The notes under the pieces are model-generated. The model did not search any database. It was not told the origin of the DNA and was given only the letters and a program-made list of their open reading frames with translations. Shown piece after piece: positions 9,196-63,397 of a DNA stretch of 64,000 nt. Position numbers and translations under genes: made by a program. Within the stretch, counting starts at the first letter, position 1. Each line of letters begins with the position of its first letter. The DNA is from Desulfuromonadales bacterium (GTDB taxonomy: Bacteria > Desulfobacterota > Desulfuromonadia > Geobacterales > Pseudopelobacteraceae), in assembly GCA_013377095.1 (NCBI GenBank), contig JACAAY010000001.1, forward strand, positions 1 through 64,000, read 5' to 3'.

Positions 9196-9216
9196 GGCAA
9201 GGGAGTCAAACGTACC

Positions 9217-33748: not shown

Positions 33749-33811
33749 GGTGATTTCCCCTTTCTGGGAGTTTAATGTAGGTGACCTTCTGGCCACTGTC
33801 TGTTAGTACTC

Positions 33812-39111: not shown

Positions 39112-39115
39112 AGGA

Positions 39116-42100: not shown

Positions 42101-44686
42101 TGCCGAGAGCACCTCGTCGGCATCCATCACCAGGATCCAGGCTCCTTTTGTCTTTGAAAGAGCATGATTTCGAGCGCTGGAGAAGTTCCCGTTCCAGGTG
42201 AAATCGTAGACCCGAGCCCCAAAGGCGGTGGCTATTTCGACCGTATGGTCAGTTGAGCCGGTATCAACAATAATCATCTCATCCACGACCGGTTTCAGGC
42301 TGGCAAGACAGGCCGGCAGAAATGATTCCTCATCCTTGACGATCATGCAGAGTGAAACGGAGCGCGTACCCGCTTCAGCCAGACGATCGTAGAGACCTAT
42401 GTGCCGGACTAATCGCAGTGCCATGCTCAACAACTCTTCGTCTACGCCGAATCTGACGAGAAATATCTCGCATGCCTCCAACGCCTCCCTCTGCCGCCCA
42501 CACCTTTCGAGCATTTCGGCGTGATGCCGCCCCAGGTTACAGCTGTCAGGATACTGATGCGCGGCATCGGTAATCACCAGAAGGGCATCGACCAGATGGT
42601 CAAGCCGTTCAGACATATCCCGCAGAATTATTACCGCTTCCCCGTTCAACGGATCAACCACCACCGCCCGGCGCACAGCCTGATACGCACCATCCTGATC
42701 ACCGTTCCCCCACAACAACATCCCCAGTGACAACCATCCGCCACCGCAGGAAGGATCTGCCTCAATCGCTTTCCGGAAGAATGCCTCCGCTTCTCCCGGT
42801 TCCCCTCGACGTGCCGCCAACGTGCCAAGAACAACCAGCACACGGGGACAGCTCCCGCCATCAGAGAGAGCTCGTTCCGCGCACCGTGCCGCGGTACCAT
42901 CGTCTCCGAGAGCGGAATAACAGAGCGCCTCAAGTTCGGCCCCAGAGATCCCGGTGCCCCCGGGAAACTCGGCCAAAACCTGGAGCGCTTCATCATAACG
43001 ACCGGAAGCAATCAGCATCTCCGTTAGTGCGATATATGGCGTTTTACACGAGGCGTCCGCTTTGATCCCCTTCTGAATCAGTATCTCTACAGCCTCATTC
43101 AGGAGTCCTTTCTGATCACGTCGCTGGGCCTCCTCAACTGAAATCAGTATCAGCCAGCGGCGAAGTGTTGCTTCATCAAGATTATTGGGCGCCCATTTAT
43201 AATTAAACAGCTGGTGGTTATTCTTCATGGCCTGAGAAAAATCAACCCGATTGCCGGTAAAGGTTGCGCCACCGGCATGATGCACAAACACGTCACCCGC
43301 AATCATGTTGCGATAGCCGGCCAACTCCGCCCGCAAACAGTAGTCGTCATCCTCGAAATTTCCCGAACCGAAGTCTTCATCCAGCAAACCGATTTTTTCT
43401 GGCAGCTCCCGCCGGAAATGCATGCAGAATCCGACAATACGGCGTTGGCGGATAATCTGGTAGCGATTCCTCTCGCGGAACGCCGCTGCCCAGGCAGGCA
43501 GTTCTTCCAGGGTTCCATAGCCTGAATCCGCTACCACCTGTACCCCGCTGGCGCTGTTTGTCATGGGACCGACGATGCCAACATCCGGGTAGCGGTCAAG
43601 CAGCTCCCGCATGCCGGTCAGCCAGCCTGACGTCACTATCGTATCATTATTCAACAGAACGATATGTGAGCCCGCAGCAGCCAGGATCCCCTGGTTGCAT
43701 CCCTTGGCAAACCCCAGGTTGGAGCCGTTTTCTATTATTCGACAGATTGGATCGTGCGCCGCCTGCTCCCGCAGCCAATCCAGCGTGCCGTCGCTTGAAC
43801 CGTTGTCGACGAAGATGATCTCGTACGGGGCGTCGGTATGTGCCCGAATGCTGGCCAGGCAGGCCTTGGTGTATTCAAGCTGGTTCCAGGTCAGGATGAT
43901 GATGGAGGTCAAGTCAGGCGTGCTCGACAGCGGGGCGAGGGTGGGGGGGCGGCTTGAGATGATGGTTTCGATGTACTCGGCGGCCTCTTTGTTTGAGTTG
44001 ATTTCCGGGTACCAGGTCATCTGGATGAATTGATCGAGCTGGCGCTGAAACTCGACAGGACCAGGCGGGAGCGGTTGGTGTCCAGCCATATCAACTAGGG
44101 TATCACCATCGATACGCATTACCGTGCAACCACATAATGTCGCTTCTGTCAAAAGATGCGTCCGATGATCATAGCTGTAAAATGTTCTGGTGCGATTAAG
44201 AAGTTCTGCCAGTTCCCGTCGTTTTGTCGGCCACTTATAGGTGATCTCGATACACCCGTTTGTTGCGGGGTGATGGGTGTTCTGCCCCTTTCCGACCCAG
44301 ACACAGTCTACGGTTCTCTCCAATTCTCTATCCGTGAAAAAATCTTCGATTATCGGTATTTCCAGGTATACCCCGTTTGAATATTGGGAAAACTCTTCCG
44401 TATAGGCCACCAGTATTTCATTGCTGTCATATTCGGTGGTTCCGCCAAGTTTGCCCGGCACATTCAGAATATATCTGACCACTCTTTTTGCATTCAGGGG
44501 ATTGCCTGGAATGATTTCCGGATAGACGACAATGTCGTCATCCTGAATGGCATAGGGAGCATTGATGTCAATATTGGGGATTATGGCATCCTTGCCCGAT
44601 CGGATCAGCCATTTCTGCAGTTCCTGCAGTACTGCGATGCCGGCGGTTTTTTGATTGTAGGTCGGAGCTACAATGACATATCTCAT
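39116..44686 (-). CDS. Giant TPR protein with three GT2 glycosyltransferase domains
   Basis: An 1856-residue protein. Residues 1-260 form a GT-B-like or unknown N-terminal domain (MRYVIVAPTYNQKTAGIAVL). GT2 domain 1 (about 264-500) has TSIIILTWNQ, IFVDNGSSDG and VLLNNDT. After TPRs comes GT2 domain 2 (about 773-950; SVSLCMIVKDEE, DTGSTDHT, VMDADEVL), another TPR stretch, and GT2 domain 3 (about 1459-1652; SVSLCMIVKNEA, DTGSSDRT, VMDADEVL), then final TPRs. Domains 2 and 3 with their TPRs are clearly an internal duplication. It would extend a glycan in several steps. The start overlaps the upstream FkbM stop by four bases (ATGA). Confidence 0.85.
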   Translation of the reverse strand: MRYVIVAPTYNQKTAGIAVLQELQKWLIRSGKDAIIPNIDINAPYAIQDDDIVVYPEIIPGNPLNAKRVVRYILNVPGKLGGTTEYDSNEILVAYTEEFSQYSNGVYLEIPIIEDFFTDRELERTVDCVWVGKGQNTHHPATNGCIEITYKWPTKRRELAELLNRTRTFYSYDHRTHLLTEATLCGCTVMRIDGDTLVDMAGHQPLPPGPVEFQRQLDQFIQMTWYPEINSNKEAAEYIETIISSRPPTLAPLSSTPDLTSIIILTWNQLEYTKACLASIRAHTDAPYEIIFVDNGSSDGTLDWLREQAAHDPICRIIENGSNLGFAKGCNQGILAAAGSHIVLLNNDTIVTSGWLTGMRELLDRYPDVGIVGPMTNSASGVQVVADSGYGTLEELPAWAAAFRERNRYQIIRQRRIVGFCMHFRRELPEKIGLLDEDFGSGNFEDDDYCLRAELAGYRNMIAGDVFVHHAGGATFTGNRVDFSQAMKNNHQLFNYKWAPNNLDEATLRRWLILISVEEAQRRDQKGLLNEAVEILIQKGIKADASCKTPYIALTEMLIASGRYDEALQVLAEFPGGTGISGAELEALCYSALGDDGTAARCAERALSDGGSCPRVLVVLGTLAARRGEPGEAEAFFRKAIEADPSCGGGWLSLGMLLWGNGDQDGAYQAVRRAVVVDPLNGEAVIILRDMSERLDHLVDALLVITDAAHQYPDSCNLGRHHAEMLERCGRQREALEACEIFLVRFGVDEELLSMALRLVRHIGLYDRLAEAGTRSVSLCMIVKDEESFLPACLASLKPVVDEMIIVDTGSTDHTVEIATAFGARVYDFTWNGNFSSARNHALSKTKGAWILVMDADEVLSARDYEVLKSMLAQSKRKQVAWSVTTRNYMTDSMQHDWTANSGEYSREERGIGWCPSPKTRLFPNDQRIRFEGPVHEVVEHSLKRLEIPVHQAPFVVHHYGHLDKDAMKSKKLNYYELAKEKLKTSPNDAGALAELAIQAGEVGRFDEALGLWDRVLDIQQNNKQAHFNRSHVLNHLKRYPESIEAAKQALKIDPSMKEAAFYYATGELYVGDLSQAEAELFRIIAIHPAYPPAVALLSVIRLCRGDSASAEEFLQMLKQINFAITSFIVDCIHKLADVQRTELARNLLQLSVQSGCLPKEALTELKRCTVPQGRTETADVLSRRVLDDETLLRAGIVNRAISEAYRFTVRGETDHAVEELLQKGIRVSPDDPAPYLALVDILLTDKRFQDAGQVFPEMPKETPRATILSLQAACREGMGEDDQASRCAAEALEIDPDNVRALNIMGLLSHRRGNLDDAAVWFERAMKASPTAGEPCANRGVMLWTAGEKQAGYELLKRGAQLSPLDGKIMETYLDAAARMGQQQEALGLLSEKLRCYPESRLLIRSLTETLLSVGKTSEALDVLLKALSILGADGDLLDAALELRRQEGPRNPLVGGEPQSVSLCMIVKNEAANLPRCLASVMPVVQEMVIVDTGSSDRTIDIATAFGAQTFNFSWTGNFSDARNFSLSKARGEWILVMDADEVLSAQDHDTLRHMVCSSSVRKEAWSIIVRNYTERINVQGWTANDGLYPSEERADGWYPAQRVKLFPNDPLFCFSGEVHELVEPSLRSAGVAIRTATSFTVHHYGELFGLPEELAIKQRRYFDLGKEKLAERPNDIIALTELAVQAGELEMFDEALALWDRVLSVQPDTVEALFNKSYVLIGMKRYREALNTSRRALELDPYHKEAAFNFGTCVMFCDDPYSAITVLTPVLAMHPDYPLLLALLTVLYLVTNQHDLARTTYTELESLNYAIADYIRDRALELDVAGREDMAQELRKGGMLLGIDPTVLDGSGE

Positions 44687-45858
44687 GATGGTGAAGTTTC
44701 CCTTACTGCGTCAGTGGTTGCGTACAGGACGGTTTCTCCGGTGAAAGAGGTATAGTTTCGCAAATGGAAACGGTAGCCAAGCCCCAGACTGTCGAGATAG
44801 AGCGGTATCTCCCACAGGTGCTGTGGGGCATGATACAGGCAGATCGCCAGATCCGGGCGGCTTTCCCGAATCGTATTTTCAGCGCCTTTCAGCGCTTCAA
44901 GCTCAGCCCCTTCAATGTCCATGATGATATACGTCGGATTAAATCCGGGCAGAACATGGTCAATCGTAACAGCTTGAATCCATGACTGACCCGATGCCAA
45001 GATTCTCGACCCGAAACTGGTGTCGGAATAGGTAAATGGCTCTACTCCATCATGGCTGTAAACGGCGCAGGGGATCGCGGTTACCCGCCGGGCCAGGACA
45101 TGCCTGTTTGTGGACAGGTATTCCGCAGTCAACCTGAACTGATTCGGATCCGGCTCGAAGCAGACCAGTTCATCGATCCTCCCTGTCCGGCACAAGACGC
45201 TGGCCAACTCGCCAATGCTCACCCCGCAGTAAATGGTTCGGGAATAGCCCTTGGCCAACGGGAAGCCTTTGGGGGTATACTGCTCGCCCCTGTCGCACAT
45301 GGGAATTGCAACCGGCTTTCGCTGAAGGTGGGTCTGCAGGCAGCGTATGAAGACCTCTCTGCTGCGGTCGTCATCCAGAATGTTCAGACAGGCTTCGATG
45401 CTTTCCCGCTGATTCGAAAAATAGGCAAATCCGATGTCCTCAAGCTCTTGAGGCAGGCAAAAGGGGTTATGAATCTCGTAGATATCCATCAGCGAGATGA
45501 TGTTGAGAAACCCTATCTGCCGCAACGATTGGACAACCTCGTCAAAATAGCGCTGTTTGCCGAGGCAGACAACCACCACTCCTGTCTCTTTCTCCTCGAT
45601 GGACGGCTGATAATCCGAGGGAGAAAAGGCAGGAATCCCCTCAAAGGTTTCGCCTTGGCCAAATTTTCGATCCAGAACGACAGACGGGATATGGCCGTAC
45701 TGCCGCATGACTACCTCTTTGAAGTAGTGGAACGACTCTCCTGCCCCGTACACAATGATAGCGCGTCCCTGGAAAATTTTATGGATGAAAAAGGCGTCTC
45801 CCGGGAATGATCCTTGATCAAACATTTGGGAAAGGGCAGTTTTGTAATCATTCATCAT
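44683..45858 (-). CDS. FkbM methyltransferase with N-terminal Rossmann-like module (paralogue 1)
   Basis: A 391-residue protein, the most divergent of six paralogues. The N-terminal module has AIIVYGAGESFHYFKEV and VVLDRKFGQGETFEGIPAF. The FkbM domain has CFEPDPNQF, YIIMDIEGAELEALKGAE and PDLAICLYH. Motif I, normally an acidic strand end then G-x-x-x-G, reads TIYCGVSIGELAS, so SAM binding may be altered. FkbM enzymes O-methylate sugars or similar acceptors. It ends in an ATGA overlap with the giant glycosyltransferase gene. Confidence 0.8.
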   Translation of the reverse strand: MMNDYKTALSQMFDQGSFPGDAFFIHKIFQGRAIIVYGAGESFHYFKEVVMRQYGHIPSVVLDRKFGQGETFEGIPAFSPSDYQPSIEEKETGVVVVCLGKQRYFDEVVQSLRQIGFLNIISLMDIYEIHNPFCLPQELEDIGFAYFSNQRESIEACLNILDDDRSREVFIRCLQTHLQRKPVAIPMCDRGEQYTPKGFPLAKGYSRTIYCGVSIGELASVLCRTGRIDELVCFEPDPNQFRLTAEYLSTNRHVLARRVTAIPCAVYSHDGVEPFTYSDTSFGSRILASGQSWIQAVTIDHVLPGFNPTYIIMDIEGAELEALKGAENTIRESRPDLAICLYHAPQHLWEIPLYLDSLGLGYRFHLRNYTSFTGETVLYATTDAVRETSPS

Positions 45859-45877
45859 AGTTCTTCTGGCCTTTCAT

Positions 45878-47104
45878 TTACGGCACGGCAAAGAGAATCG
45901 TCTCTGAAAAGGTTGTGCAATAGTGCCGGAGATAGAACTTGTAGTCCGGATAGAAATTATGCAGCAAGAGAGGGATTTTAAAGATGTCGTCACGTTTGTG
46001 ATAGAGGCTGATGGCCAGCTTGGGCCTGTTTTGGCAGATGGTTCCTATTGCTCCGATAAGGGCCTGCAACTCGGCGCCCTCAATGTCCATTTTGATGAAA
46101 GTGACTCCTGCGTCCGGGATCAATTCATCCATACTGGCCACATCCACCTCAATCGTGCCGTCATTGCTCAGGCTTCCCGGGGTGCCGGCCTGCAGCGGAT
46201 CCGGATTGGAGAAGCGGAGGCGGTCACGCTGCGACCACAATCCGTAGGGGAGGCAGCGCACATTGGGGAGATGCTGCGTGTTGAGTACGAGCTGCCTGAA
46301 ATTGTTCGGATCGGGTTCGAAATTGATGATTTCCCGGTACTCAAGCCCCTTGGCCGCGCAGCTCGCGGCGAACTCGAGGGCGCAGTCGCCCACCAGAGCG
46401 CCCACATTGGCAAAGACCTCCTGCTCCCCCAGCTGACAGAAGTCGCTGTTGAAATAGAAGTAGTTCTCGTCATAGCGCGGTTCGGAGAAGAGCTTGTCGC
46501 CCGGAGGGGCATGCAGATCCGCATAGCCATCGATGAAGCGCCGGAACGAGGCGTAGTCGTAGGCACTGGCGAACAGGGCGATGCGCCGGACGAACAGCTC
46601 CTTTGATTTCTGGTCGGAGAGCAGGTCGAAGGCAGCCTGCAGCTGCTGTTCGTGGGCATACAGCTCCGCTACCGTCCAGCAATACTGGTTGACGAGGTTG
46701 GTGTAATAGAGCAGTGGCTCGGTCGGAGGGATATGGAGCCGGTCCTCTGAAAAACCGCAGCCCAGCAGCTGATCATGGATCTGCAGGGCGGTCTGCCGAG
46801 CCGTGGAGATGACGATCAGGCAGTCCCGGTGGCTACTGGCCAGCTCCTCCAGGGAGATGACCGGATGCCCGCCGCAGCGGGTGCCGACGAGGGCGGGGTT
46901 GTTGTCGCAGAAGGCGGCGATCGTAACGAAGTGGATCTTCAGGGCGTTGCAGAGGTAGCTGCCGGCCGATCCCGCGCCGAACAGCACCACCGGTAAGCTG
47001 CCGCCGGTCACGGCGGCAAGGTGCCAGCCCAGAATGTTCGGCAGGAAATCGGCCATTTCGCAAGATGTTGTCAACTCGTTTATTTCACGCAGTACCTGGT
47101 TCAC
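45878..47104 (-). CDS. FkbM methyltransferase with Rossmann-like module (paralogue 2)
   Basis: A 408-residue protein starting at a GTG with AAGGAG six bases upstream. N-terminal module about 30-150: PVVLFGAGSAGSYLCNAL, FCDNNPALVGTRCGGHPVIS. A helical linker (YAHEQQLQAAFDLLSDQKSK) shared with its paralogues follows. The C-terminal FkbM domain has VFANVGALVGDCALEFA, INFEPDPNNF, VTFIKMDIEGAELQALIGA and PKLAISLYHKRDD. Clearly GC-rich over its N-terminal half compared with the carbamoyltransferase region. The substrate is probably a sugar; this is inference from context. Confidence 0.84.
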   Translation of the reverse strand: MNQVLREINELTTSCEMADFLPNILGWHLAAVTGGSLPVVLFGAGSAGSYLCNALKIHFVTIAAFCDNNPALVGTRCGGHPVISLEELASSHRDCLIVISTARQTALQIHDQLLGCGFSEDRLHIPPTEPLLYYTNLVNQYCWTVAELYAHEQQLQAAFDLLSDQKSKELFVRRIALFASAYDYASFRRFIDGYADLHAPPGDKLFSEPRYDENYFYFNSDFCQLGEQEVFANVGALVGDCALEFAASCAAKGLEYREIINFEPDPNNFRQLVLNTQHLPNVRCLPYGLWSQRDRLRFSNPDPLQAGTPGSLSNDGTIEVDVASMDELIPDAGVTFIKMDIEGAELQALIGAIGTICQNRPKLAISLYHKRDDIFKIPLLLHNFYPDYKFYLRHYCTTFSETILFAVP

Positions 47105-47133
47105 CTGGTGCTCCTTCGGCGGTTTGAGTTCAT

Positions 47134-48414
47134 TTATTGGGCGGGAATAGCGAATAGTACCAAGTCGAAAAGGGTATAGCCGTAATGCCGCAGGTACAAT
47201 TTGTAGTCCGGGCTGAGCGAGTGGATTAACAGCGGCAGCTCATACAGGTCGCTGTGCTTGTGATAGGCGCTGATGGCCAGCTTGGGGCGGCAGCGCTCGA
47301 TTACCCCGGCCGCCCCCCGGAGCGCCTCGATTTCGGCGCCTTCCACATCCATCTTGATATAGGTGACGTCGCCATCGGGAAACTGCTCGTCGATGCCGAT
47401 GGTCTGTACCTCGGTTCTGATGGCGCCCGGGGTGGGGGCCTTGTCACTGCACGCCTCGAGCACGGCGCCCGGGTCGCATTCCGAAGCGCTCAGGAAGGTC
47501 AGGGTGGTGGCATGGGACCAGAGCCCCTTTTGGATGCAGGTGACGTCGTGCAAACGGGCTGTATTGTTCTTCAGGAGCCCGAAGTTGCCGGGGTCCGGCT
47601 CGAAGCAATAGATCCCCCTGTAGGCCACGCCCTTGTTCTCGCAGGTTCTGGCGAAGGTGGCTGCCGACAGCCCGTTGAACGAGCCGCCATCGATCAGCAC
47701 CTCGCCATCCTCCAGGCGGGCGATATCGTTGTTGAAGTAGCCGTAGTCCTCGGGGGAAACGTAGAACGGGAATGCCTCCCGCTCCGGTTCATTCAGCTCC
47801 GAAAAGCCGGAGATATAGTTGGAGAAGCGCGAGAAATCCATGGGAGAGGTGAAGAGGGACAGCCGGGCGATGAAAATGTCCCTGGATTTCTGGTCGGCCA
47901 GCAGTCCGTATGCGGTTGTCAACTCCTCCTGGTGGTTCTTCAGGTCGTCCATTGACAAGGCATGCCGCGGATTCTCGGTGTAGTACGCGCAATGACAGTA
48001 GTAGCCGAGGCCAAGCAGCGCCGGTTTTCCGATCGGCGAAACCGGAATCAGTCTTTCCGCGGCGAAGCCATTCTCCAGCAGCTGCCGCCGGATTTCGGAT
48101 TCGTACACGCTCGATGCGATGACAATCAGGTGATTCCTGCAGGAATCTTTCAGCTCTGCGAAAGGGATGACGGGGACACCGGAATAGTGGCGGCCGATCT
48201 CGGACGGGTTGTTGTCGCAAAAGCAGACCGGCTGTACGCCATGCAGCTGCAGTACCTGGCAAAGGTCCCGTCCCACGGCTCCGACGCCGAACAGGGCCAC
48301 CGGAACCGCCCCGTCCGTGGCTGCCTGGCGATGCTCTCCAAAGACGAGCGTGAGGAAATCCTCCTGTTTATGGGATTGGGAATAGGCTTCGATGCTTTCA
48401 AGCAATTTGTTCAT
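47134..48414 (-). CDS. FkbM methyltransferase with Rossmann-like module (paralogue 3)
   Basis: A 426-residue protein. Start at 48414 (MNKLLESIEAYSQ) with AAGGA nine bases upstream; a GTG eight codons earlier is possible. N-terminal module: PVALFGVGAVGRDLCQVL, VCFCDNNPSEIGRHYSGVPV. FkbM domain: VLIDGGSFNGLSAATFA (intact motif I), CFEPDPGNF, TYIKMDVEGAEIEALRGA and PKLAISAYHKHSDLYELP. It is strikingly similar to the protein at 55606-56907, sharing long blocks such as FPFYVSPEDYGYFNN and YLRHYGYTLFD, which points to recent duplication. Confidence 0.86.
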   Translation of the reverse strand: MNKLLESIEAYSQSHKQEDFLTLVFGEHRQAATDGAVPVALFGVGAVGRDLCQVLQLHGVQPVCFCDNNPSEIGRHYSGVPVIPFAELKDSCRNHLIVIASSVYESEIRRQLLENGFAAERLIPVSPIGKPALLGLGYYCHCAYYTENPRHALSMDDLKNHQEELTTAYGLLADQKSRDIFIARLSLFTSPMDFSRFSNYISGFSELNEPEREAFPFYVSPEDYGYFNNDIARLEDGEVLIDGGSFNGLSAATFARTCENKGVAYRGIYCFEPDPGNFGLLKNNTARLHDVTCIQKGLWSHATTLTFLSASECDPGAVLEACSDKAPTPGAIRTEVQTIGIDEQFPDGDVTYIKMDVEGAEIEALRGAAGVIERCRPKLAISAYHKHSDLYELPLLIHSLSPDYKLYLRHYGYTLFDLVLFAIPAQ

Positions 48415-48441
48415 TTCAGCTGTTCCTTCCCTGATCACCCA

Positions 48442-49680
48442 TCAAGGGATTGCAAAGAGCGTTGTTTCGCCAAAATTGTTGCTGAAATGCCGGAAGTACA
48501 GTTTGCAGGTAGGCATCATCTCATGGATCAGCAGCGGGATCTCGAACAAATCGTTTCGCCGGTGATAGGCGCTGATGATCAGCCTGGGGTTGCAGCGGGC
48601 AATGGTCTTCCGGGCGCCGTTCAGCGCCTCGATTTCGGCTCCTTCGATATCCATCTTGATGAGGGTCACCTGCGCGGAGGGGAGCTCTTCATCGATGCAG
48701 GTTGTCGGGATCTTCAACACCTCCGACCGTTTGTCGGACAGGTCCTCGTTGGAGTCATTTTCCGAAACGATACGGGTACTGCCTGGCTTAAGGATATTCG
48801 AGTCGGCAAAGCTGAGGGTCGTGGCGTGGGACCAGAGGCCAAATGGTCGTAGCAGGATGTTGTTGATCTGGGTGGTGGAGCGCTGCAGTTCTGCAAAGAT
48901 CCGCGTATCCGGTTCGAAGCAGATAATTTTGCAATATGTTGCCTGCTGTTTTTTTACCGCCTTGATGAATTCAAGAGTCGAATCGCCCGTAAAGGCGCCG
49001 CCATCCACGAACAGTTCGTCATCTGCCAGCCGGATCAGGTCATTGTTGAACTGTAGATAGGCCTCGCTGTCGTTCATTCCTTGGACATTGCGAGCATCCG
49101 ATAACTTTGAAATAAAATCACGGTATGATTGGAAATCTGCACCACGAACAAACAGAGCAATTCTGGTGACAAAAATATCTCTCGATTTATCATCAGCTAA
49201 CAAACTGTAGACTTTTTGCAGATCATCAGCATGTGCAAGCAAGTCCTCATCCGACCAGTGCCATTGAGCAAGGTGCGTATAGTAGCAGATCGCCTCGCTG
49301 TTCGATATTATAAGCACCCGTTCGGCGTTGAATCCGGCATCCACCAGTTGCTGCTTGATCTGATCACCGTACGCTCCGGAGGTGACGACAATCAGACTGT
49401 TTGTATGCTTCTGCCGCAAATCGGCCAGGGAGATGATCGGCAGACCGCAGTACAGCTCACCCTCTCGCAGAGGGTTGCTGTCGCAGAAACAGACCGGATT
49501 GACCCCATGCCACTGTAGAATGGGATAGAGTTCCTTGCCCGCCGATCCCGCTCCAAATAAAACCACCGGAACAGCGCCCATGACTGCTTCATGTCTGAAT
49601 TCCCCAAAGATTGTAGGCAGGAAATCAGCCTCTTCGCAGGATTTTGACTGGCTAATAATTAGTTGAAGAACATAGTTCAC
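48442..49680 (-). CDS. FkbM methyltransferase with Rossmann-like module (paralogue 4)
   Basis: A 412-residue protein beginning at GTG (AAGGA six bases upstream). N-terminal module: PVVLFGAGSAGKELYPIL, VCFCDSNPLREGELYCGLPI, then LIVVTSGAYGDQIKQQL. The linker helix is followed by the FkbM domain with LFVDGGAFTGDSTLEFI, CFEPDTRIF, VTLIKMDIEGAEIEALNGA and PRLIISAYHRRNDLFEIP. All family motifs look intact. The middle of the gene is visibly more AT-rich than paralogues 2 and 3. It follows the small unknown gene by 33 bases. Confidence 0.86.
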   Translation of the reverse strand: MNYVLQLIISQSKSCEEADFLPTIFGEFRHEAVMGAVPVVLFGAGSAGKELYPILQWHGVNPVCFCDSNPLREGELYCGLPIISLADLRQKHTNSLIVVTSGAYGDQIKQQLVDAGFNAERVLIISNSEAICYYTHLAQWHWSDEDLLAHADDLQKVYSLLADDKSRDIFVTRIALFVRGADFQSYRDFISKLSDARNVQGMNDSEAYLQFNNDLIRLADDELFVDGGAFTGDSTLEFIKAVKKQQATYCKIICFEPDTRIFAELQRSTTQINNILLRPFGLWSHATTLSFADSNILKPGSTRIVSENDSNEDLSDKRSEVLKIPTTCIDEELPSAQVTLIKMDIEGAEIEALNGARKTIARCNPRLIISAYHRRNDLFEIPLLIHEMMPTCKLYFRHFSNNFGETTLFAIP

Positions 49681-49713
49681 GGATTATCCTTGCATGTATA
49701 ATAAATCAACAGG

Positions 49714-50067
49714 CTAAAAATTATAAATAAATGCCGGAATGCCTGTTTTGGCCTGTACGGCAGTCTCAGCCTTATTGTGAAATGCTGCAATCGTGGCGAT
49801 AACGGCAAATTCCTTCATGTATTCATGCCCCTGATAGTGCCACATGTTTTGCAACATGGTTCGTAATTCCACGGGAGTGTTAAAATCGTAGTCGTACACC
49901 TCCGATTCAAACAGTTGCATATCAGACTTGTTGCAATAGTAGCTGTCAGTTTCCTCCGAAGGAGTACTCATGATTTCACTGCATTTCCCGTCTTGATGAA
50001 TTTTGGAGCAGCACTCAAGGATCTTTTCCTTCTCGGTATTCGGCGTTTTAAAGTTAGTCGAGCTCAT
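49714..50067 (-). CDS. Small unknown protein coupled to the carbamoyltransferase
   Basis: A 117-residue protein of no family I recognise. The ATG at 50067 has GGAGG seven bases upstream, and the gene overlaps the carbamoyltransferase by 14 bases. The N-terminal third is Cys-rich (ILECCSKIHQDGKCSEI, DSYYCNKSD); the rest is probably helical (FNTPVELRTMLQNMWHYQGH, EFAVIATIAAFHNKAET) and ends GIPAFIYNF. No signal peptide or membrane helix. The tight coupling suggests a partner or regulatory subunit of the carbamoyltransferase; this is inference. Confidence 0.7.
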   Translation of the reverse strand: MSSTNFKTPNTEKEKILECCSKIHQDGKCSEIMSTPSEETDSYYCNKSDMQLFESEVYDYDFNTPVELRTMLQNMWHYQGHEYMKEFAVIATIAAFHNKAETAVQAKTGIPAFIYNF

Positions 50068-51898: not shown

Positions 51899-52068
51899 CT
51901 CTCATTTTCTCCCACGACAACAAAATATCCGCTGTGATTGCAACCTTCTGAATGTACCAGGTTATACCACCTTGGTGCATCCGCCTCTCATTTTCATGGA
52001 GGGTTTCAATGCCTGGGTTAGGCTTTATGTCTTTTGAAATAAATCATGCCACGTTTTCCTTACTGAAA

Positions 52069-53871: not shown

Positions 53872-54100
53872 GTACTGCTCCTTTACAAACGGTGCGCTCT
53901 CACCAATCAGTAATGGCATGCCGGGCATCATCAATTGCTCTCATACAATGACAATAAAGCCAGATACAATACCGCATAATAAAATCACTGGCTGACAGTA
54001 AATCTACGTTCTGTATAACGCTTTGCCAGATTCAAATAGAAACCATAATTAAATGGAAAATGTTTTTATTCACAAGCGCGTCAGGATTGGCGCAGAAGTT

Positions 54101-55546: not shown

Positions 55547-55605
55547 TCTCAAATGACTCCATAGCTAATGGCGGTCTCGCCGTTTATAATTTATCTAGCT
55601 TTTCT

Positions 55606-56907
55606 TCAAGAGGGGATAGCAAACAACACCATGTCAAAAAGCGTATAACCGTAATGCCGTAAATAAAATTTGTAGTCCGGGTTCAGGCTGCGTATCAATA
55701 ACGGCAGCTTATACAGATCACTATGCTTGTGATAGGCGCTGATGGCCAGTTTGGGTTGGCATCTCCGAATCGTCCCGGCCGCTCCACGGATCGCCTCTGT
55801 CTCGGCGCCTTCAACGTCCATCTTGATAAAGGTTATTTCCTGATCCGGAAACTGTTCGTCGATGCTGGTGGTGGGAATTTCAATTCGGTAGGCGCACTCT
55901 TCAATGTCGGTATTGCCGCAGCATTCCAGAAAGGCCGCCGGATCACATTCCTTCGTGCTGAGAAACGTAAGCGTCGTCTGGTGCGACCAGAGTCCGCGCT
56001 GGATGCAGTGGGTGTCGTGCAGCCGGCTGGTGTTTTGTTGCAGCACAGTGAAATTTCCTGAATCGGGTTCGAAACAGTAGATCCCTCCGTAGGTCAGGCT
56101 ATTGTCCTCGCACGTTTTTGCGAACGTGGCGGCCGACAGGCCGTTGTAGGCGCCGCCATCCACCAGGATCTCCCCCTCCCGCAGGTGGACAACTTCGTTG
56201 TTGAAATAGCCGTAATCCTCTGGCGAAACATAGAACGGAAACGAATCCCGTTTTGTTTCGTTCAGTTCGGAATGATCACGGATATATTGCGAGTAATTGG
56301 AGAAATCTAGCGGCGAGGTGAAGAGCGCAAGGCGGGCGATAAAGAGGTCTCTCGATCGCTGGTCTTCCAGCAGGTCATAGGCCTGCGCCAGCTCTTCCCT
56401 GTCCTGCTGAAGGTCGGCCAGCGATAGGGCGTGCTTCGGATTGAGGGTATACCAGCAGCAGTGCTGATAGTATCCAAGCAGTTCGGGGCTGAGAATCGGC
56501 GCTATGGAGACGATCCGTTCAGCCGGAAAGCCATGTTCTTGCAACTGGGATTGTATCTCGGACGCATATTTGGCTGAAGCCGCGACGATCAGGCTGTTTC
56601 GGTGCGTCTGCTGCAGTTCGGCGAAGGGAACGACCGTAACTCCGTGATACACCTGGCCGATTCGGGTGGGGTTGTTGTCACAGAAGCATACAGGTTGCAC
56701 GCCATGCAACTGAAGCACCTGGCAGAGTTCTGTTCCGACCGCTCCGGTGCCGAACAGGACAACCGGGGTTGTGCCGTTCAGGGCCGCTTTGGTGAAATCC
56801 CCGAAGAGTGAGCGCAGAAAACCGCTGTCGCCATGGTTGCCGGCACACTCAGCAAGCCTGGCCAGAATGTCATTCCCGTTAGCTATGGGTAGTCTTGAAG
56901 CTGTCAT
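55606..56907 (-). CDS. FkbM methyltransferase with Rossmann-like module (paralogue 5)
   Basis: A 433-residue protein, close homologue of the one at 47134-48414. N-terminal module: PVVLFGTGAVGTELCQVL, VCFCDNNPTRIGQVYHGVTV. FkbM domain: ILVDGGAYNGLSAATFA, CFEPDSGNF, ITFIKMDVEGAETEAIRGA and PKLAISAYHKHSDLYKLP. All motifs are intact. The start is ambiguous: ATG at 56907 (MTASRLPIANG) with AGAGGA ten bases upstream, or a GTG two codons earlier. The next gene upstream ends 41 bases before. Confidence 0.86.
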   Translation of the reverse strand: MTASRLPIANGNDILARLAECAGNHGDSGFLRSLFGDFTKAALNGTTPVVLFGTGAVGTELCQVLQLHGVQPVCFCDNNPTRIGQVYHGVTVVPFAELQQTHRNSLIVAASAKYASEIQSQLQEHGFPAERIVSIAPILSPELLGYYQHCCWYTLNPKHALSLADLQQDREELAQAYDLLEDQRSRDLFIARLALFTSPLDFSNYSQYIRDHSELNETKRDSFPFYVSPEDYGYFNNEVVHLREGEILVDGGAYNGLSAATFAKTCEDNSLTYGGIYCFEPDSGNFTVLQQNTSRLHDTHCIQRGLWSHQTTLTFLSTKECDPAAFLECCGNTDIEECAYRIEIPTTSIDEQFPDQEITFIKMDVEGAETEAIRGAAGTIRRCQPKLAISAYHKHSDLYKLPLLIRSLNPDYKFYLRHYGYTLFDMVLFAIPS

Positions 56908-56948
56908 GGTCACCACATCCTCTTAGAATAGTGCTGCAACTCTGCTGC

Positions 56949-58214
56949 TCAGAGTGTCGCATACAGATCGGTATCGCACAGATGATAGGTATTATGGCGC
57001 AAATACAACTTGTACGCCGGGCAGATACCATGCAGCAGCAGCGGGATCTCGAACATGGAGGTGACGGAATGATAGGCGCCGAGGGCCAGCTTGGGCTTGT
57101 CACGGGCGATGATGCCGGCCGCGCCCCTGACCGCTTCCGGGATCACGTTGCCGCCCGGATCCATCTTGATCAGGGTGACCTTTTCACCCGGTAGCGCCTC
57201 GTCCAGGCTGACCACCGGTATCTCGATATTCCCCGAATGATCAATGGTGCCGGCCTGATCATGGATGCCGGTGTCTGAGGTGCTGAAGCGCAGCATCTGG
57301 GAGTGGGACCAGACCCCTGCCGGATGGCAGACGACATTTTGATAGCCGGCCGTGTTTTTCAGCAAGGCCTGGTAGCAGTGGGGATCCGGTTCAAAGGCGT
57401 GGATTTTCCGGTACTCGACCCGCGCCCTGGAGCAGGCCTCCACGAAGGTGGCAACCGTGTCGCCGTCATAGGCCCCGACATCGATATAGACCTCGTCGGG
57501 TGACAGGGTCAGGACATCGTTGTTGAAATAGAAATAGTCCTCTGGGGTGCCCTCGTAATGTCCGAAGCCGAACTGAAGCACCGGCTGGCTGAAGTTCCGG
57601 ATAAAATCCTGGAACAGTTCAAAATTCCCGTTGGAGGCCATCAGCGCCAGCTTGGCGATATACAGCTCCTGCGAGTGCTCATCCGACAGCAGCTTGTAGG
57701 CAGCGAGAACCGCCTGTTCGTGCTCTCGGTAAGTGTCCAGGACGGTTCGCTCGCCGCACTCGATCCGGTAGCCGGCAATCAGGCACTGGCTGCCGATCAT
57801 GGCATACATGAACAGGATCGGCGTAATGGGATCAGACTGCTGGCAGAGTACCCGGTCGCTGACGAATCCGCTACGCAGCAGCTGGTCCGTAAGGGGGGCC
57901 AGGTATTTGTGGGAGGCGATGATGATCAGGCTGCTGCGATGGGAATCTTGCAGCTCCTGATAGGTGATCACCGGAATGTTGCAGTATTCGCCACCTTTAC
58001 GGGTGTCGTCATTGTCGCAGAAGCAGACCGGGCTGACACCATGGGTTCGCAGGGTCGCGCAGAGTTCGGCCCCCAGCCCCCCGGCGCCGAATAGCACCAC
58101 CGGAGCACCGTCGAGGGCTGCCTGGCGATGGCCCCGGAAGAGGGCCTCCAAAAAATCCGGTTTCGTCTCGGCTGCTGCGATCCGGCCAACGATCTGTTGC
58201 GTAAGTGTGTTCAT
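56949..58214 (-). CDS. FkbM-like protein with Rossmann-like module, core motif altered (paralogue 6)
   Basis: A 421-residue protein with the same layout: module (PVVLFGAGGLGAELCATL, VCFCDNDDTRKGGEYCNIPV), helical linker, then FkbM domain with EVYIDVGAYDGDTVATF and AFEPDPHCY. The core FkbM signature K-M-D-I/V-E-G-A-E reads KMDPGGNVIPEAVRGA here, so the Glu-Gly-Ala-Glu step is lost while the surrounding fold and the following PKLALGAYHS remain. The enzyme may be inactive, a binding-only subunit, or changed in specificity. A sequencing error is less likely since the frame stays open to a normal end (LYATL). The ATG at 58214 has only a weak ribosome site. Confidence 0.82.
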   Translation of the reverse strand: MNTLTQQIVGRIAAAETKPDFLEALFRGHRQAALDGAPVVLFGAGGLGAELCATLRTHGVSPVCFCDNDDTRKGGEYCNIPVITYQELQDSHRSSLIIIASHKYLAPLTDQLLRSGFVSDRVLCQQSDPITPILFMYAMIGSQCLIAGYRIECGERTVLDTYREHEQAVLAAYKLLSDEHSQELYIAKLALMASNGNFELFQDFIRNFSQPVLQFGFGHYEGTPEDYFYFNNDVLTLSPDEVYIDVGAYDGDTVATFVEACSRARVEYRKIHAFEPDPHCYQALLKNTAGYQNVVCHPAGVWSHSQMLRFSTSDTGIHDQAGTIDHSGNIEIPVVSLDEALPGEKVTLIKMDPGGNVIPEAVRGAAGIIARDKPKLALGAYHSVTSMFEIPLLLHGICPAYKLYLRHNTYHLCDTDLYATL

Positions 58215-58248
58215 AGCCTGCCTGTCGAGTATATGGAGTCATGAAGCG

Positions 58249-60054
58249 TCATGTCGGTTCGACCGTCCGCAGCCGCGGCACAACCCCCTCGGGGGTGATG
58301 TCGAACGTTGGAACCAGGATCCGCCGCACCGAAGGGAAGGTGGCGGTCAGGGTGGCATGGATTTCAGCCTTGCGGCTCAGGGCGGTGATGATGACCGTTT
58401 CGATCCGTTTCCGCACGATGACATCGGCCGCCTGCACCTCTTTCCCGCAGATCGACAAACCCTGCTGGGCCGGGTTCACGTCCACCAGCAGGAAACGCTG
58501 CGCGGCGAGGAGGTCATACTTCTGGAACAGCTTGTAGAATATCCCTCCGGCCCCCCACAGGGCAATCTCGCCGTCGGTCGGCAGGGCGGCCAGGAAGGCA
58601 TCCTGGTTGTGCAGCGCCTTCTGGAAGGGGTCGATGAAGTTTGTCAGGCCGCAGGCGGGGCAGCGCACCTCCTGGCCAAACCAGAATGGCACCCTGGTGT
58701 CGCTGTGTGTCGCGCAGGCCCGGCAGGCATAGTCGATCCGGCACTCTCCGTCCGGTCGGATCGATTCGATCTCGAACGAACCGGCCGGGACATGGGGGTG
58801 GAAGCGCAGCTCGGCCACCTTCGATCGCAGGGCGTGATATTCGGTCGCGTCGAGCCTGGACACGTTGACGAGCGGGCAGCCGTCACGGAGAAACTGCTCC
58901 CGGTCGCCGATCAGGCCGTTGTCGCAGGCGTGGCTGTAGAGGAACGACCCGGGAAACACCGAGATCATGGAAAGGTTCAGGTAGTGCCGGCCGGTGTGGC
59001 GCTGCCAGAACGCCAGGGTGTTTGCAACGGTTTCCCGGCATTCGTTGATGTCGCCGAAGATGAAGCCCCCCTCGATCATCAGCCGCGCCGCGTAGGTCAG
59101 CTCAAGCGCCTCTTCGATCTGCCGGACGGTGATCCCCTTGCGCATGCTCTTCAGGATGCTGTTGTCGGCGCTCTCCAGGCCAAACACCACGTTGAGGCAG
59201 CCGGACTCCTTCATCAGCCGCAGCATCTCGGCATCCACGTCGCAGACCCGCAGGCAGCAGCTCCAGGACAGGTTGTAGCCCTTGATCCGCTTACAGAACT
59301 CGGCCACCCGCTGGTGGGATGTGGCGAACAGTTCGCTGCTCAGGCCGAGGCAGGTCACGCCGTATTGGCGTACCTGGTGGTCGATTTCCGCGAAGATGCT
59401 GTCAAAGGAGCGCTGGCGGTACTTTTCCCCGGTCGGGTGAAAGCAGAACGTGCAGCGAAACGGGCAGGAGCGGTCGGTCAGCACCAGGCCGGACCCGGAT
59501 GAGGCCACCCAGCGGCCGTAGCCGAAGCCGTCGAAATCGGGGAAAGGGATGCCGTCCAGATCGGCGATCTCCGCCCGCGGCGCCGTGATAACCAGAGAAT
59601 TGGCGGCATCCCTGTAGATTAGCCCCGCGACAGCGTCGATCGGTTGATCGTTTTCCAGGGCGCGGGCAAGTTCGCACATGGTGACCTCGCCTTCGCCGAT
59701 AACCCCGATGTCGGCATTCAGGACGCGCATGGCCGGTTCCGGGTCGGAACTGATGATTCCCCCCCCCACGACGGTGATGATCCGGGGATTGACGGCGCGA
59801 GCCGCGTCAATGACCTCCTTGAGTTTGGCGCAGTCCCGGCTGAGGCCGCCGGTGCAGATGACGTCGATGGCATGCTCCGTCAGCAAGCCGCGCACAAGGG
59901 CTGCGGTATCGCCCTCCAGGTAGTCCAGGTTGGCGGTAAACACGGCGAAGCCGGCCCGTTTCATGCTGGCTGACACGTAGGCCAGGCCGATCGGGAATAT
60001 GTTGAAGTGGTCGATGGTGCCGAGGCTCTTGGGCATGACCAGCAAAAAATTCAT
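58249..60054 (-). CDS. B12-binding radical SAM protein with zinc ribbon and Rossmann-like module (copy 2)
   Basis: A 601-residue paralogue of the proteins at 52069 and 60051. B12-binding domain: FNIFPIGLAYVSASMKRAGF, TVVGGGIISSDPEPAM. Radical SAM motif: RSCPFRCTFCFHP (about 190-203). Zinc ribbon: CRACA ... CPACG (about 440-470). C-terminal module: EIALWGAGGIFYKLFQKY, LVDVNPAQQGLSICGKEV, then TVIITALSRKAEI. GC-rich, unlike copy 1. The ATG overlaps the stop of copy 3 by four bases (ATGA), so the two are made together. The 34-base gap before the FkbM gene is empty. Confidence 0.87.
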   Translation of the reverse strand: MNFLLVMPKSLGTIDHFNIFPIGLAYVSASMKRAGFAVFTANLDYLEGDTAALVRGLLTEHAIDVICTGGLSRDCAKLKEVIDAARAVNPRIITVVGGGIISSDPEPAMRVLNADIGVIGEGEVTMCELARALENDQPIDAVAGLIYRDAANSLVITAPRAEIADLDGIPFPDFDGFGYGRWVASSGSGLVLTDRSCPFRCTFCFHPTGEKYRQRSFDSIFAEIDHQVRQYGVTCLGLSSELFATSHQRVAEFCKRIKGYNLSWSCCLRVCDVDAEMLRLMKESGCLNVVFGLESADNSILKSMRKGITVRQIEEALELTYAARLMIEGGFIFGDINECRETVANTLAFWQRHTGRHYLNLSMISVFPGSFLYSHACDNGLIGDREQFLRDGCPLVNVSRLDATEYHALRSKVAELRFHPHVPAGSFEIESIRPDGECRIDYACRACATHSDTRVPFWFGQEVRCPACGLTNFIDPFQKALHNQDAFLAALPTDGEIALWGAGGIFYKLFQKYDLLAAQRFLLVDVNPAQQGLSICGKEVQAADVIVRKRIETVIITALSRKAEIHATLTATFPSVRRILVPTFDITPEGVVPRLRTVEPT

Positions 60055-61889
60055 GGCGTGGCCCCCGGGACAGCGTCCGGGCCGAATGGCTCCAGGAACG
60101 GCACGATCCCGTTGGTGGTTAGCCTGAACGAGGGGATCAGGATCATGTTCACCGATGGAAAGCGTTCGACCAGGGTGGCATGGATTTCATGCTGACGGCT
60201 CAGGGCGGTGATAATGACCGTGGTTATCCCGCTGCTGGCGATCAGCTCGGGGGGGTGAACGATCTTTTTGCAGATCACCAGCCCCTGCTGCTCGGGGTTG
60301 GCATCCACCAGCTGGAACCGTTCGCCGGCTAAGCCACTGACCTGCTGCATGAGCTTGTAGTAGATCCCGCCGGCGCCCCACAGGACGACGGCCCCATCCC
60401 CCGGCAGATTGTCAAAAAACCGACTCTGGTTGACGGTGGCCCCCCGGAAGGGGGCGACCTCGTTTTTTATCCCGCAGGCGGCGCAGTGGCAGATTTCGGT
60501 GAACCAGAACCAGACCACCGCCCGGTTGCTTGTCCGGCACTTGCGGCAGACGAATTCGGTCGTACACTGGCCATCCTCGCTGATATCCAGGATCCGCACC
60601 GATTCCGCCGGCACATGGGGGTGCATCCGCATCTCGGTGATCAGCGAGGTCAGGTCGTGGAATTCGGCGGAGCTCAACCGGGAGACATTGACGATCGGGC
60701 AACCGTCGCGCAGAAACTGCTCCTTGTCGCTGATGATCCCGTTCCAGCAGGCATGTTCGTACAGATGGGTGCCCGGGTAGGTCTGGATCAGGCTCAGGTT
60801 GATGTGGGTCTTGTTGTTGTACTTCCACCAGAGTTTCATTGTATTTGCGACGGTTTCGGCATTCTCGGCGATATCACCGAAGATGAAGTTCGAGGCTTCG
60901 GTGGAGATCCCGGCTGCGTAGCTCAGGTCCAGGGCACGTTCGATCTGGTCGACCGTGATCCCCTTGCGCATGCTCTTCAGGATCGAGTCGTCTCCGCTCT
61001 CCAGCCCGTAGCAAACCAGGTTGCATCCCGCTTCTTTCATCTGCTGAAGCAGTTCCGCGTCGACATCGGTCACGCGCAGGCAGCAGCTCCAGGCCAGGTT
61101 GTAGCCCCGTATCCCGGCGCAGAAATCCAGTATCCGTTTTCGCGTGGTGGCGAACAGCTCGCTGGTCAGCCCGATGCTGGTCAGCTGGAAGTGTGTCTTC
61201 TGGAACTCGATTTCCGCGAAGATATTCTCCAGTGAGCGCTGGCGGTATTTTTCCCCGGTGGGGTGGAAACAGAATGTGCAGCGGAATGGACAGGAGCGGT
61301 CGGACAGCAGCACGCCGGCCCCGCCGAAATACGTGACCCACTGGCCATAGTTGAAGCCGTCATAGTCGGGAAACGGGATGCTGTCCAGGTCGGCGATTTC
61401 CATCCGCGCGGGTGTCGTAACCAGCTTCCGGTCGCTGCCACGATAGATCAGACCGGGAACGTTGGCGTATGTCTCACCGGAGTCCAGGGCGGAGGCCAGT
61501 TCGCAGAGCGTGACCTCTCCCTCGCCGATGACCCCGATGTCGGCGCCAAGCACGTTCATCGCCGTTTCCGGATCGGAACTGATGATCCCGCCACCCACTA
61601 CCGTGATGATTTGCTGATTGATTCGGCGGGCGCTGTCGATCACATCCTTGATCTTGTGACAATCGAGGCTGAGGCCGCCGGTACAGACGACATGGATGTC
61701 GTTGTCCAGCATCATCCGCTGCAATACCGAAAAGGTGTCTCCCTCGGGGAAATCCAGGTTGGCGGTGAACACCGCGAAGCCGGCCTGTTTCAGGGCTGCC
61801 GATACATAGGCGATACCCAGGGGAAAGATAATCGAGGTGGTGTTGGCGCCGGTTGAGAGCTTTTTCGGCATGACGAGCAAGTAATTCAT
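60051..61889 (-). CDS. B12-binding radical SAM protein with zinc ribbon and Rossmann-like module (copy 3)
   Basis: A 612-residue paralogue. B12-binding domain: IIFPLGIAYVSAALKQAGF, ITVVGGGIISSDPETAM. Radical SAM motif: RSCPFRCTFCFHPTGEK (about 195). Zinc ribbon: CRKCR ... CAACG (about 447-475). C-terminal module: VVLWGAGGIYYKLMQQV, LVDANPEQQGLVICKKIV, TVIITALSRQHEIHATL. The B12 domain and the radical SAM core together suggest C-methylation or another difficult radical reaction, possibly on a sugar. AAGGG precedes the ATG. It lies 56 bases after the fourth radical SAM gene. Confidence 0.87.
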   Translation of the reverse strand: MNYLLVMPKKLSTGANTTSIIFPLGIAYVSAALKQAGFAVFTANLDFPEGDTFSVLQRMMLDNDIHVVCTGGLSLDCHKIKDVIDSARRINQQIITVVGGGIISSDPETAMNVLGADIGVIGEGEVTLCELASALDSGETYANVPGLIYRGSDRKLVTTPARMEIADLDSIPFPDYDGFNYGQWVTYFGGAGVLLSDRSCPFRCTFCFHPTGEKYRQRSLENIFAEIEFQKTHFQLTSIGLTSELFATTRKRILDFCAGIRGYNLAWSCCLRVTDVDAELLQQMKEAGCNLVCYGLESGDDSILKSMRKGITVDQIERALDLSYAAGISTEASNFIFGDIAENAETVANTMKLWWKYNNKTHINLSLIQTYPGTHLYEHACWNGIISDKEQFLRDGCPIVNVSRLSSAEFHDLTSLITEMRMHPHVPAESVRILDISEDGQCTTEFVCRKCRTSNRAVVWFWFTEICHCAACGIKNEVAPFRGATVNQSRFFDNLPGDGAVVLWGAGGIYYKLMQQVSGLAGERFQLVDANPEQQGLVICKKIVHPPELIASSGITTVIITALSRQHEIHATLVERFPSVNMILIPSFRLTTNGIVPFLEPFGPDAVPGATP

Positions 61890-61945
61890 TCAGGTACCCT
61901 TTGATCGGAATCCATGGCCGTCCCGTTTCCGTGCGACAGTCGCAA

Positions 61946-63397
61946 CTAGGCGAGTTCTGCCAGTTGCGTGCCAGCCCCCATGTTTCGGGAGATTGCCTTA
62001 AGGATTTCGCTGCGGTGTTTCTCCGGCGGGACCACCAGGATGACATCGGCGGCGACCGCCGGGATGTCTTCGTAGCCGTAAATGGTGCGGCCATCCAGCG
62101 TTTTACCCTGCTGGATCGGGTTGCGGTCGATAAATCCGATCCAGTCCGCCCGCTGGATCTCCCGGTCGGACAGCAGCTTCTGGGTCGCCGGACAGGCCGG
62201 CACTAGCAGGACACGTTTGCCTTCCAGGGACCAGGGTGTCAATTTTCCGTCATGTGTGGTCAGCGACAGCGGGTCGCAGGTGAATCGCTCCGGCTCGCCC
62301 TGCTCCGGTTGGTCTCCAGACCGGAAATCCCGGAGCACCAGATCGGGGTTGCCCAGCGGCACCGTCGTGCCATGCCGATCGATGGCTGACAAGAGCCGGT
62401 CCATGATCTTCTTACCCTCTTGGCTGACGGTTGCGATGGCTTCCTTGTAGTAGTGAAAGGGCTCAAGTCCATGTTTCCTGAGAAGCAGGTACAGCTTTGC
62501 ATAGGCCTCGATCTGCGGAGCGCAGTCACGGTCGGCCTGGCGCAGGAACATTGGGGCGAAGTCGAAGGTCAGCCAGACCTGCTGGGGACGCAGCGCCAGC
62601 ATGGCGTAGGCAAATCCGGCAATATCGTCATCACCGTAGTTGGATTCGCAAAAGATATACTTGGCGGCCAGCATCCCCTTGCCCTTGCTCCCGGCCACCG
62701 CGTAGCGGCTCAGGTTTTCCAGCACCTGCAGATAGCTGTCGCGTCCCCGCAAAGCCCTGTAGGTTGATGGCGTGCCGGCATCCACCGAGGTTGCCGCGAT
62801 GTAGATCGACCCATCCGCCAGCCCGTCGTAGATGGCCTGGTGAAACTCGACCCCGTTGGTGAACATGAGCACCCGGATTCGGCGGTTGCGGAAGAACTCC
62901 AGATACCCCTCCAGGTTCTCCAGCAGGGTCGGCTCGCCACCGGCGAAATCAACGTGGGCGTTCCACTCGACCTCGTCGGCCGAAAAGACGTTCAGCACCG
63001 CCAGGGCGTCGTATTGCGCCGGATAATGCATGTTGTCGCGGGTATAGGCGCAGTAGGAGCAGCGCAGGTTGCAGATGCTGTAATGCTGCAGGTCAACATG
63101 CCCCAGGCGGGAAAAGGAGATGTCGCCATAGCGCTTTTGCTCGACCATCAGGCACTGCTTGCAGTCCATCTCGCTCTGGTCGTCGTTGAGCATGCGGATA
63201 TATTCTTTCCTCTTGGCAACAATAAAATCTTTGGTCACCACTCCTTGGACGACATCTTCTGCGCTGCAGAACAGTGGCGGCATCAGGGCCCCGCGGGTGC
63301 ATGCTCGAATTCCCTGGATGCTCAGGTTCAGTCCGCTTTCCAGTTTGCAGCAGCTCTTGACAATATCATCCGGCTGGAAGGGGTCTTTTGTCATCAT
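61946..63397 (-). CDS. Radical SAM protein with C-terminal Rossmann-like module
   Basis: A 483-residue radical SAM enzyme without a B12 domain. Cys109, Cys113 and Cys116 (ICNLRCSYC) bind the cluster; VDFAGGEPTLLENL is the SAM-binding GGE motif. Earlier cysteines (Cys16, 17, 33, 44, and CKQC at 79-82) may bind another metal; such Cys patterns recall twitch/SPASM-type radical SAM proteins. The C-terminal module (about 385-480) is the most divergent copy: RVLLVPACPATQKLLSDREI, FIDRNPIQQGKTLDGRTIYG, ILVVPPEKHRSEI. AGAGG lies five bases upstream of ATG 63397, and the SDR stop codon directly precedes that ATG. Confidence 0.83.
   Translation of the reverse strand: MMTKDPFQPDDIVKSCCKLESGLNLSIQGIRACTRGALMPPLFCSAEDVVQGVVTKDFIVAKRKEYIRMLNDDQSEMDCKQCLMVEQKRYGDISFSRLGHVDLQHYSICNLRCSYCAYTRDNMHYPAQYDALAVLNVFSADEVEWNAHVDFAGGEPTLLENLEGYLEFFRNRRIRVLMFTNGVEFHQAIYDGLADGSIYIAATSVDAGTPSTYRALRGRDSYLQVLENLSRYAVAGSKGKGMLAAKYIFCESNYGDDDIAGFAYAMLALRPQQVWLTFDFAPMFLRQADRDCAPQIEAYAKLYLLLRKHGLEPFHYYKEAIATVSQEGKKIMDRLLSAIDRHGTTVPLGNPDLVLRDFRSGDQPEQGEPERFTCDPLSLTTHDGKLTPWSLEGKRVLLVPACPATQKLLSDREIQRADWIGFIDRNPIQQGKTLDGRTIYGYEDIPAVAADVILVVPPEKHRSEILKAISRNMGAGTQLAELA

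Follow-up and report, generated by a model that had tools for sequence, protein, structure and literature searches.

Neighboring genes in the window (the whole stretch of DNA analyzed here, 64,000 nucleotides) code for unrelated enzymes that appear to carry the same extra part, which raises the question of what this part is and what it does there. We found a common add-on domain of roughly 95 residues (the module) on twelve neighboring enzymes of five kinds (Table 1). A preliminary description of this DNA had counted eleven modules in four classes of enzymes, at the N terminus of six FkbM methyltransferases (F1 to F6) and an SGNH hydrolase (S) and at the C terminus of three B12 radical SAM proteins (B1 to B3) and one radical SAM protein (R). 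All eleven carriers were confirmed with the module at these sites. The SDR encoded at 63398, which has an N-terminal module past the window end, brings the numbers to twelve carriers in five classes. Since a profile built from the eleven modules is circular, the training set of an HMM was limited to 55 FkbM modules of other genomes, with the window and a syntenic locus (L050) of a Desulfarculales genome (UBA702) left out. This out-of-sample HMM unites all twelve, in agreement with the proposal that the unrelated enzymes share a homologous module of Rossmann type. It matched exactly the eleven and the SDR among 746 ORFs (about 100 kb: the window plus the following 38 kb, L019 and L020), with no further carrier in this set at E<=10 (Z=5000), the weakest of the twelve being B2 (domain E value of 1.2e-3). 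When the whole genome was ranked with the circular profile A1, the eleven took the top eleven places, followed by the SDR (12th) and a CapD-sized protein (13th), an ORF of 693 amino acids on another contig and the one other convincing match in the 5.26-Mb genome. An all-against-all BLAST within a tiny database joined the classes weakly and mostly co-linearly (F4-S, 1.9e-7; F3-B2, 9e-5; F5-R, 5e-5).

Table 1. Module-bearing genes and their neighbors (positions are those of the window unless marked as contig positions; E values as reported)
Feature	Position	Strand	Gene and evidence
F1 module, N-terminal	45508..45774	(-)	FkbM methyltransferase gene 44683-45858; profile E 7e-22; out-of-sample domain E 7.5e-9
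F2 module, N-terminal	46727..47002	(-)	FkbM gene 45878-47104; out-of-sample E 9e-22
F3 module, N-terminal	48040..48315	(-)	FkbM gene 47134-48438; out-of-sample E 2e-24
F4 module, N-terminal	49303..49581	(-)	FkbM gene 48442-49680; out-of-sample E 1e-24
NodU/TobZ-type carbamoyltransferase, without module	50054..51898	(-)	Carbam_trans_N E 2e-86
B1 module, C-terminal	52126..52398	(-)	B12-binding radical SAM gene 52069-53934; out-of-sample E 1.5e-8
S module, N-terminal	55187..55459	(-)	SGNH/GDSL-like hydrolase gene 54101-55552; out-of-sample E 2e-11
F5 module, N-terminal	56503..56778	(-)	FkbM gene 55606-56916; out-of-sample E 1.5e-24
F6 module, N-terminal	57840..58112	(-)	FkbM gene 56949-58214, altered DPGGNVIPE motif; out-of-sample E 1e-21
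B2 module, C-terminal	58309..58581	(-)	B12 radical SAM gene 58249-60054; out-of-sample E 1.2e-3
B3 module, C-terminal	60129..60404	(-)	B12 radical SAM gene 60051-61889; out-of-sample E 5e-5
R module, C-terminal	61952..62227	(-)	Radical SAM gene 61946-63397; out-of-sample E 8e-6
SDR C-terminal catalytic part	63398..64000	(-)	380-aa SDR, contig gene 63398-64540; adh_short E 3.4e-29
SDR module, N-terminal	contig 64247-64498, beyond window	(-)	Module E 3.7e-9; out-of-sample 1.1e-14
Flagellin	32915..33796	(-)	Flagellin_N E 1.9e-12
TPR glycosyltransferase, GT41	35527-39231		Glyco_transf_41 E 5e-65
TPR glycosyltransferase, GT2 domains	39116-44686		Glycos_transf_2 E 1e-67

All six F proteins score above the cut-off of the FkbM model TIGR01444, and F1 to F5, not F6, do so for the Pfam FkbM domain (Methyltransf_21). 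B1 to B3 have B12-binding and Radical_SAM domains above the Pfam cut-offs, with the CxxxCxxC motif as CPFRCTFC or CPLACTFC; by their domains they belong with the B12-dependent radical SAM methylases, and methylase activity is predicted for them. The match of S to Lipase_GDSL_2 (E value of 7.8e-6) lies under the Pfam cut-off. In B1, B2, and B3 and in both L050 orthologues, the stretch from the radical SAM domain to the module contains zinc-ribbon-like CxxC...CxxC motifs. F6 (56949-58214, (-)) and its L050 orthologue (8691-9980) have DPGGNVIPEA in place of the DxEGAExEA of other FkbM proteins; a frameshift behind this odd motif was ruled out, since the orthologue reads the same DPGGNVIPE, and the conserved variant of the FkbM signature perhaps reflects a changed activity. 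At 33888-35534, the window also encodes a fusion of an FkbM domain with another methyltransferase domain; this protein lacks the module.

The sequence pattern originally given for the module is corrected to the consensus [FYW]GAGxxG(K/R) ... F/VxDNN(P) ... G ... G(I/V)PV, but the glycine loop is not found in all modules. It is replaced in R (VPACPATQ) and in the R orthologue (VPACPLTQ), its third glycine is absent from the B modules, and GxGxxG is also incomplete in SDR modules. Among 127 module copies, the Asp after strand 2 is kept in 91% (the next residue being mostly Asn or Ser) and the two loop glycines in 95% and 88%; the nucleotide-type loop and this Asp are the most conserved residues of the module. 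A Rossmann-type fold was predicted with confidence by AlphaFold, and searched with Foldseek, for whole F4 (pLDDT 92.7, pTM 0.90) and for the B2 module (pLDDT 95.4, pTM 0.88), the two that were modeled, in line with the shared fold that had been proposed.

The nearest solved folds are those of Rex with NADH and of two terminal domains, the N-terminal one of UDP-quinovosamine dehydrogenase and the C-terminal one of MtmC and KijD1, both sugar C-methyltransferases. Among the Foldseek matches listed for the B2 module, 3nkl came first by E value, with Rex next, and MtmC and KijD1 came first by TM score: the C-terminal domain of MtmC aligned over about 110 of 116 residues (TM 0.67-0.68, rmsd 2.6-2.8), and that of KijD1, solved with TDP, gave a TM of 0.65. 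Sequence relatives with known sugar-nucleotide ligands or roles are VioB, PglD-like proteins, and UDP-quinovosamine dehydrogenase. The suspected kinship to NDP-sugar-binding domains is supported by NCBIfam matches to NeuD/PglB/VioB (E values down to 2e-7), by Pfam Methyltransf_14 (best E value of 3.6e-4), and by the solved neighbors 3nkl, VioB, MtmC, and KijD1. The N-terminal domain of a PglD-like acetyltransferase is a UDP platform, in which two adjacent Asp residues lie at the ribose and the uracil, respectively, and a Ser is near the ribose and phosphate (PMC8040287). By shared pattern rather than residue-wise alignment, the Asp and the GAG loop of the module would be placed at the same UDP-contact positions; however, the second Asp, which reads the uracil, is mostly Asn or Ser in the module, so the base contact differs from that of the PglD-like enzyme. 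Our tentative reading, to which we give slightly less than even odds, is that the module is an unnamed family in the PglD_N/Methyltransf_14/Rex-like Rossmann group that may serve in substrate recognition in glycan-tailoring enzymes; among several readings this is the likeliest, with a presumed ligand.

One point against substrate recognition is the similarity to the NADH binder Rex, which is almost equally close. In sequence (E value of 4e-10 with the A6 profile) as in fold, Rex ranks with the best neighbors, its C-terminal NADH domain shares the sequence pattern, and GxGxxG followed by an acidic residue after strand 2 is what would be expected of a module that bound NAD(H), whether as a cofactor or for redox sensing. 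We consider this improbable, given that the loop is degenerate in R and incomplete in the B and SDR modules, that the SDR has its own NAD(P) domain while methyltransferases and radical SAM enzymes catalyze without NAD, and that the aromatic-GAG and DNNP features equally suit sugar-nucleotide kin. Rex differs further in its winged-helix DNA partner domain, which is not found with the module, and in its loop, which is not present in all module classes.

The statement that no described system is built this way was too strong. An FkbM methyltransferase from Methylobacillus flagellatus solved in 2007 (2py6) has the same N-terminal Rossmann module and FkbM domain, and it is the best solved match of F4, at full length (Foldseek E value of 3.7e-21; profile E value of 8e-66 across nearly the whole chain). 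However, 2py6 has about 20% identity to F4, its own glycine loop is degenerate (GTKGFG), and it informs FkbM only and no other enzyme class; together with FkbM, it is named in only two open-access papers, and no characterization of it was found in the open-access text searched. Methyltransf_14 (PF08484; MtmC, KijD1) is likewise an accessory domain of enzymes that modify sugars, the sugar C-methyltransferases, and resembles the module in fold (TM 0.65-0.68 for B2), but its partners and positions are unlike those of the module; among the matches listed, the best reached 20.8 bits (E value of 3.6e-4, at L095), with 15.6 for F2, under the cut-off of 23.5 bits. PglD_N/NeuD domains are of the same Rossmann type, with NeuD giving the NCBIfam values above and a solved relative the UDP platform (PMC8040287), but the module is found with FkbM, radical SAM, SGNH, SDR, and other partners and not with a left-handed beta-helix transferase, and it differs in the second Asp. 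PglD_N matched one related protein only, weakly and below the cut-off. Plain membership in PglD_N or Methyltransf_14 was ruled out, as the scores lie under the curated cut-offs. We found no description of the module in the open-access literature searched, mostly abstracts.

Beyond this locus, the module recurs as a widespread accessory domain, so far without a name, of enzymes that make bacterial glycans. The evidence for it is stronger, and its range wider, than could be seen in the preliminary description. In a sample of 80 loci encoding FkbM relatives from many phyla, 64 had module matches and 34 had two or more; two or more partner groups were present in 31 loci and four or more in 13. Partner groups were defined by BLAST linkage at 1e-5, and one representative was scanned per group for part of the groups, which gave about 15 partner families, almost all of them acting in glycan biosynthesis, with the module at both termini; no description of this spread was found among open-access papers. 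The partners above Pfam cut-offs with a module at E<=1e-5 include FkbM, Methyltransf_23, Methyltransf_11, Methyltransf_24, TylF, radical SAM, GT4, GT8, GT2, GT56, TagF-type, cytidylyltransferase-like, and MptE-like. The window adds SDR and B12 radical SAM, and module scores were weaker in the scanned representatives of PIG-L, GNAT, RgpF, GT-D, and others. Genomes picked for carrying the module (n = 18) have 3 to 39 copies on few contigs, numbers that, owing to this selection, are no prevalence estimate. Of 118 genomes sampled evenly from the phylum of the window, 16 (this genome included) had a match at E<=1e-10, and this one alone had more than two. No common expansion in relatives was found: among 97 relatives and the phylum sample, only this genome has more than three matches (thresholds: E<=1e-6 for profile A1, E<=1e-10 for A6).

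Other arrangements of the module also occur. A 577-aa protein (L021, G066:C122:503-1066) has tandem modules at residues 2-87 and 100-189, and two ORFs, of 120 aa (L023, 1423-1785) and 133 aa (L095, 17759-18160), consist almost only of the module and are either free-standing copies or fragments. The latter lies immediately before a radical SAM gene that carries the module, and overlaps the start of this gene by 8 bases.

The main rival of substrate recognition is that the module is a docking or oligomerization part by which tailoring enzymes are joined or held on a common scaffold, with a ligand that is absent or structural. The module is present on enzymes with quite different substrates, glycosyltransferases included, it is strongly clustered in genomes (the 3 to 39 copies in those picked for it), its glycine loop is dispensable in R and the R orthologue, and the 133-aa copy at L095 is apparently free-standing. 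The loss of the loop in R and of the third glycine in the B modules makes a single uniform nucleotide mode impossible for all modules, and a single NDP-sugar reader is less natural for GT4, GT8, GT2, and TagF-like partners, since they already bind their own donor nucleotide. Nevertheless, conservation is highest in the nucleotide-type loop and at the Asp that follows strand 2, the close folds are ligand-binding domains, and no partner protein or scaffold was identified, and we regard docking as less likely than not. A common role in substrate recognition or docking is the best idea at present, with a predicted ligand.

Locus L050 has 17 co-linear counterparts of the genes from RfbF to F1 (33-79% identity), of which 7 carry modules in the same places as in the window (74% module identity for F1); all seven genes after the RfbF-to-GT2 part of this cassette carry the module. 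The extras of the window copy are F2, F3, F5, B1, S, the carbamoyltransferase, and the HAD phosphatase. Among 93 modules placed in a tree, whose 93 columns leave the deeper order unresolved, the window modules of shared genes group with their own class or with the L050 orthologue, and a clade of window modules only was rejected by the AU test (p-AU 5e-8). The idea that the module had moved between classes and termini inside 19 kb is not supported as stated, since the grouping follows class across orders, and the tree and the AU test for a window-only clade reject recent shuffling within the locus. One clade of window and L050 modules is compatible with the data (p-AU 0.36), and an older spread within the cassette lineage is possible. 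That modules track the orthologues of their partner class, and that the FkbM-module architecture is widespread (as in 2py6), would also fit an ordinary fusion relic, i.e., an ancient N- or C-terminal Rossmann domain kept in each family as a fold stabilizer only. This has little probability in our view considering the about 15 unrelated partner families, the use of both termini, the strong co-clustering of carriers, and the conservation of loop and Asp.

Beyond the window end, the genes continue with gaps of mostly <60 bases in the order SDR, GT2, epimerase-like, two radical SAM, NUDIX-like (so read by us from the sequence), HAD phosphatase, acetolactate-synthase-type TPP enzyme, NeuB-like, RfbH, RfbG, and RfbF. 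The last three score above NCBIfam cut-offs and, as RfbF, RfbG, and RfbH are the established route to CDP-4-keto-3,6-dideoxyglucose, this compound is a likely early product of the operon. The TPP enzyme may make a yersiniose-like branched sugar. The NeuB-like synthase (L019, 10273-11778) has a C-terminal part that we read as cupin-like, and no CMP-sugar synthetase was noticed in the operon. With the out-of-sample HMM, no module was found in the operon genes from RfbF to GT2, and all genes after GT2 down to F1 carry it except the carbamoyltransferase; in this operon, the CDP-sugar genes are without the module and the tailoring genes have it.

Farther downstream of F1 are flagellin and the TPR glycosyltransferases. 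The latter are very large TPR proteins adjoining flagellin (35527-39231 and 39116-44686), one with GT41 and the other, of 1856 aa, with three GT2 stretches. The operon looks like a flagellar sugar-decoration operon, in which the glycan would likely be transferred to flagellin by the TPR glycosyltransferases. Flagellin glycosylation islands, for example of Geobacillus and Enterobacteriaceae, also have glycan genes near flagellin, and FkbM is mentioned in these reports (PMC5109656, PMC4875605). The Desulfarculales cassette lies on a contig of 47 kb, where flagellin gave no match at E<=1e-10, and the related loci, spanning at most about 21 kb, gave one weak match (L119).

Under substrate recognition, the first genes of the operon (RfbF, RfbG, and RfbH) would build a CDP-activated 3,6-dideoxy sugar, which the TPP enzyme and the NeuB-like synthase probably branch or extend. 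The SDR reductase, the radical SAM and B12 radical SAM proteins, the SGNH hydrolase, and the FkbM O-methyltransferases would each have their module bind the shared end of one precursor (the nucleotide and first sugar being likeliest) and let the catalytic domain alter this precursor, and the TPR glycosyltransferases beside the flagellin gene would attach the finished product to flagellin; we infer the ligand binding, the identity of the ligand, and flagellin as the target. More doubtful is the generalization that a common handle-reading module is an assembly-line part, with which at least 15 unrelated families might act in turn on one nucleotide-linked precursor, in a manner comparable to carrier-domain docking in polyketide enzymes.

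One unnamed domain links methyltransferases, radical SAM proteins, reductases, hydrolases, glycosyltransferases, and nucleotidyltransferases in the glycan clusters of many phyla. If the module reads a common substrate handle, its presence would mark the genes of a cluster that act on the same intermediate, and one binding assay could show what class of substrate many uncharacterized enzymes use, B12 radical SAM proteins included.
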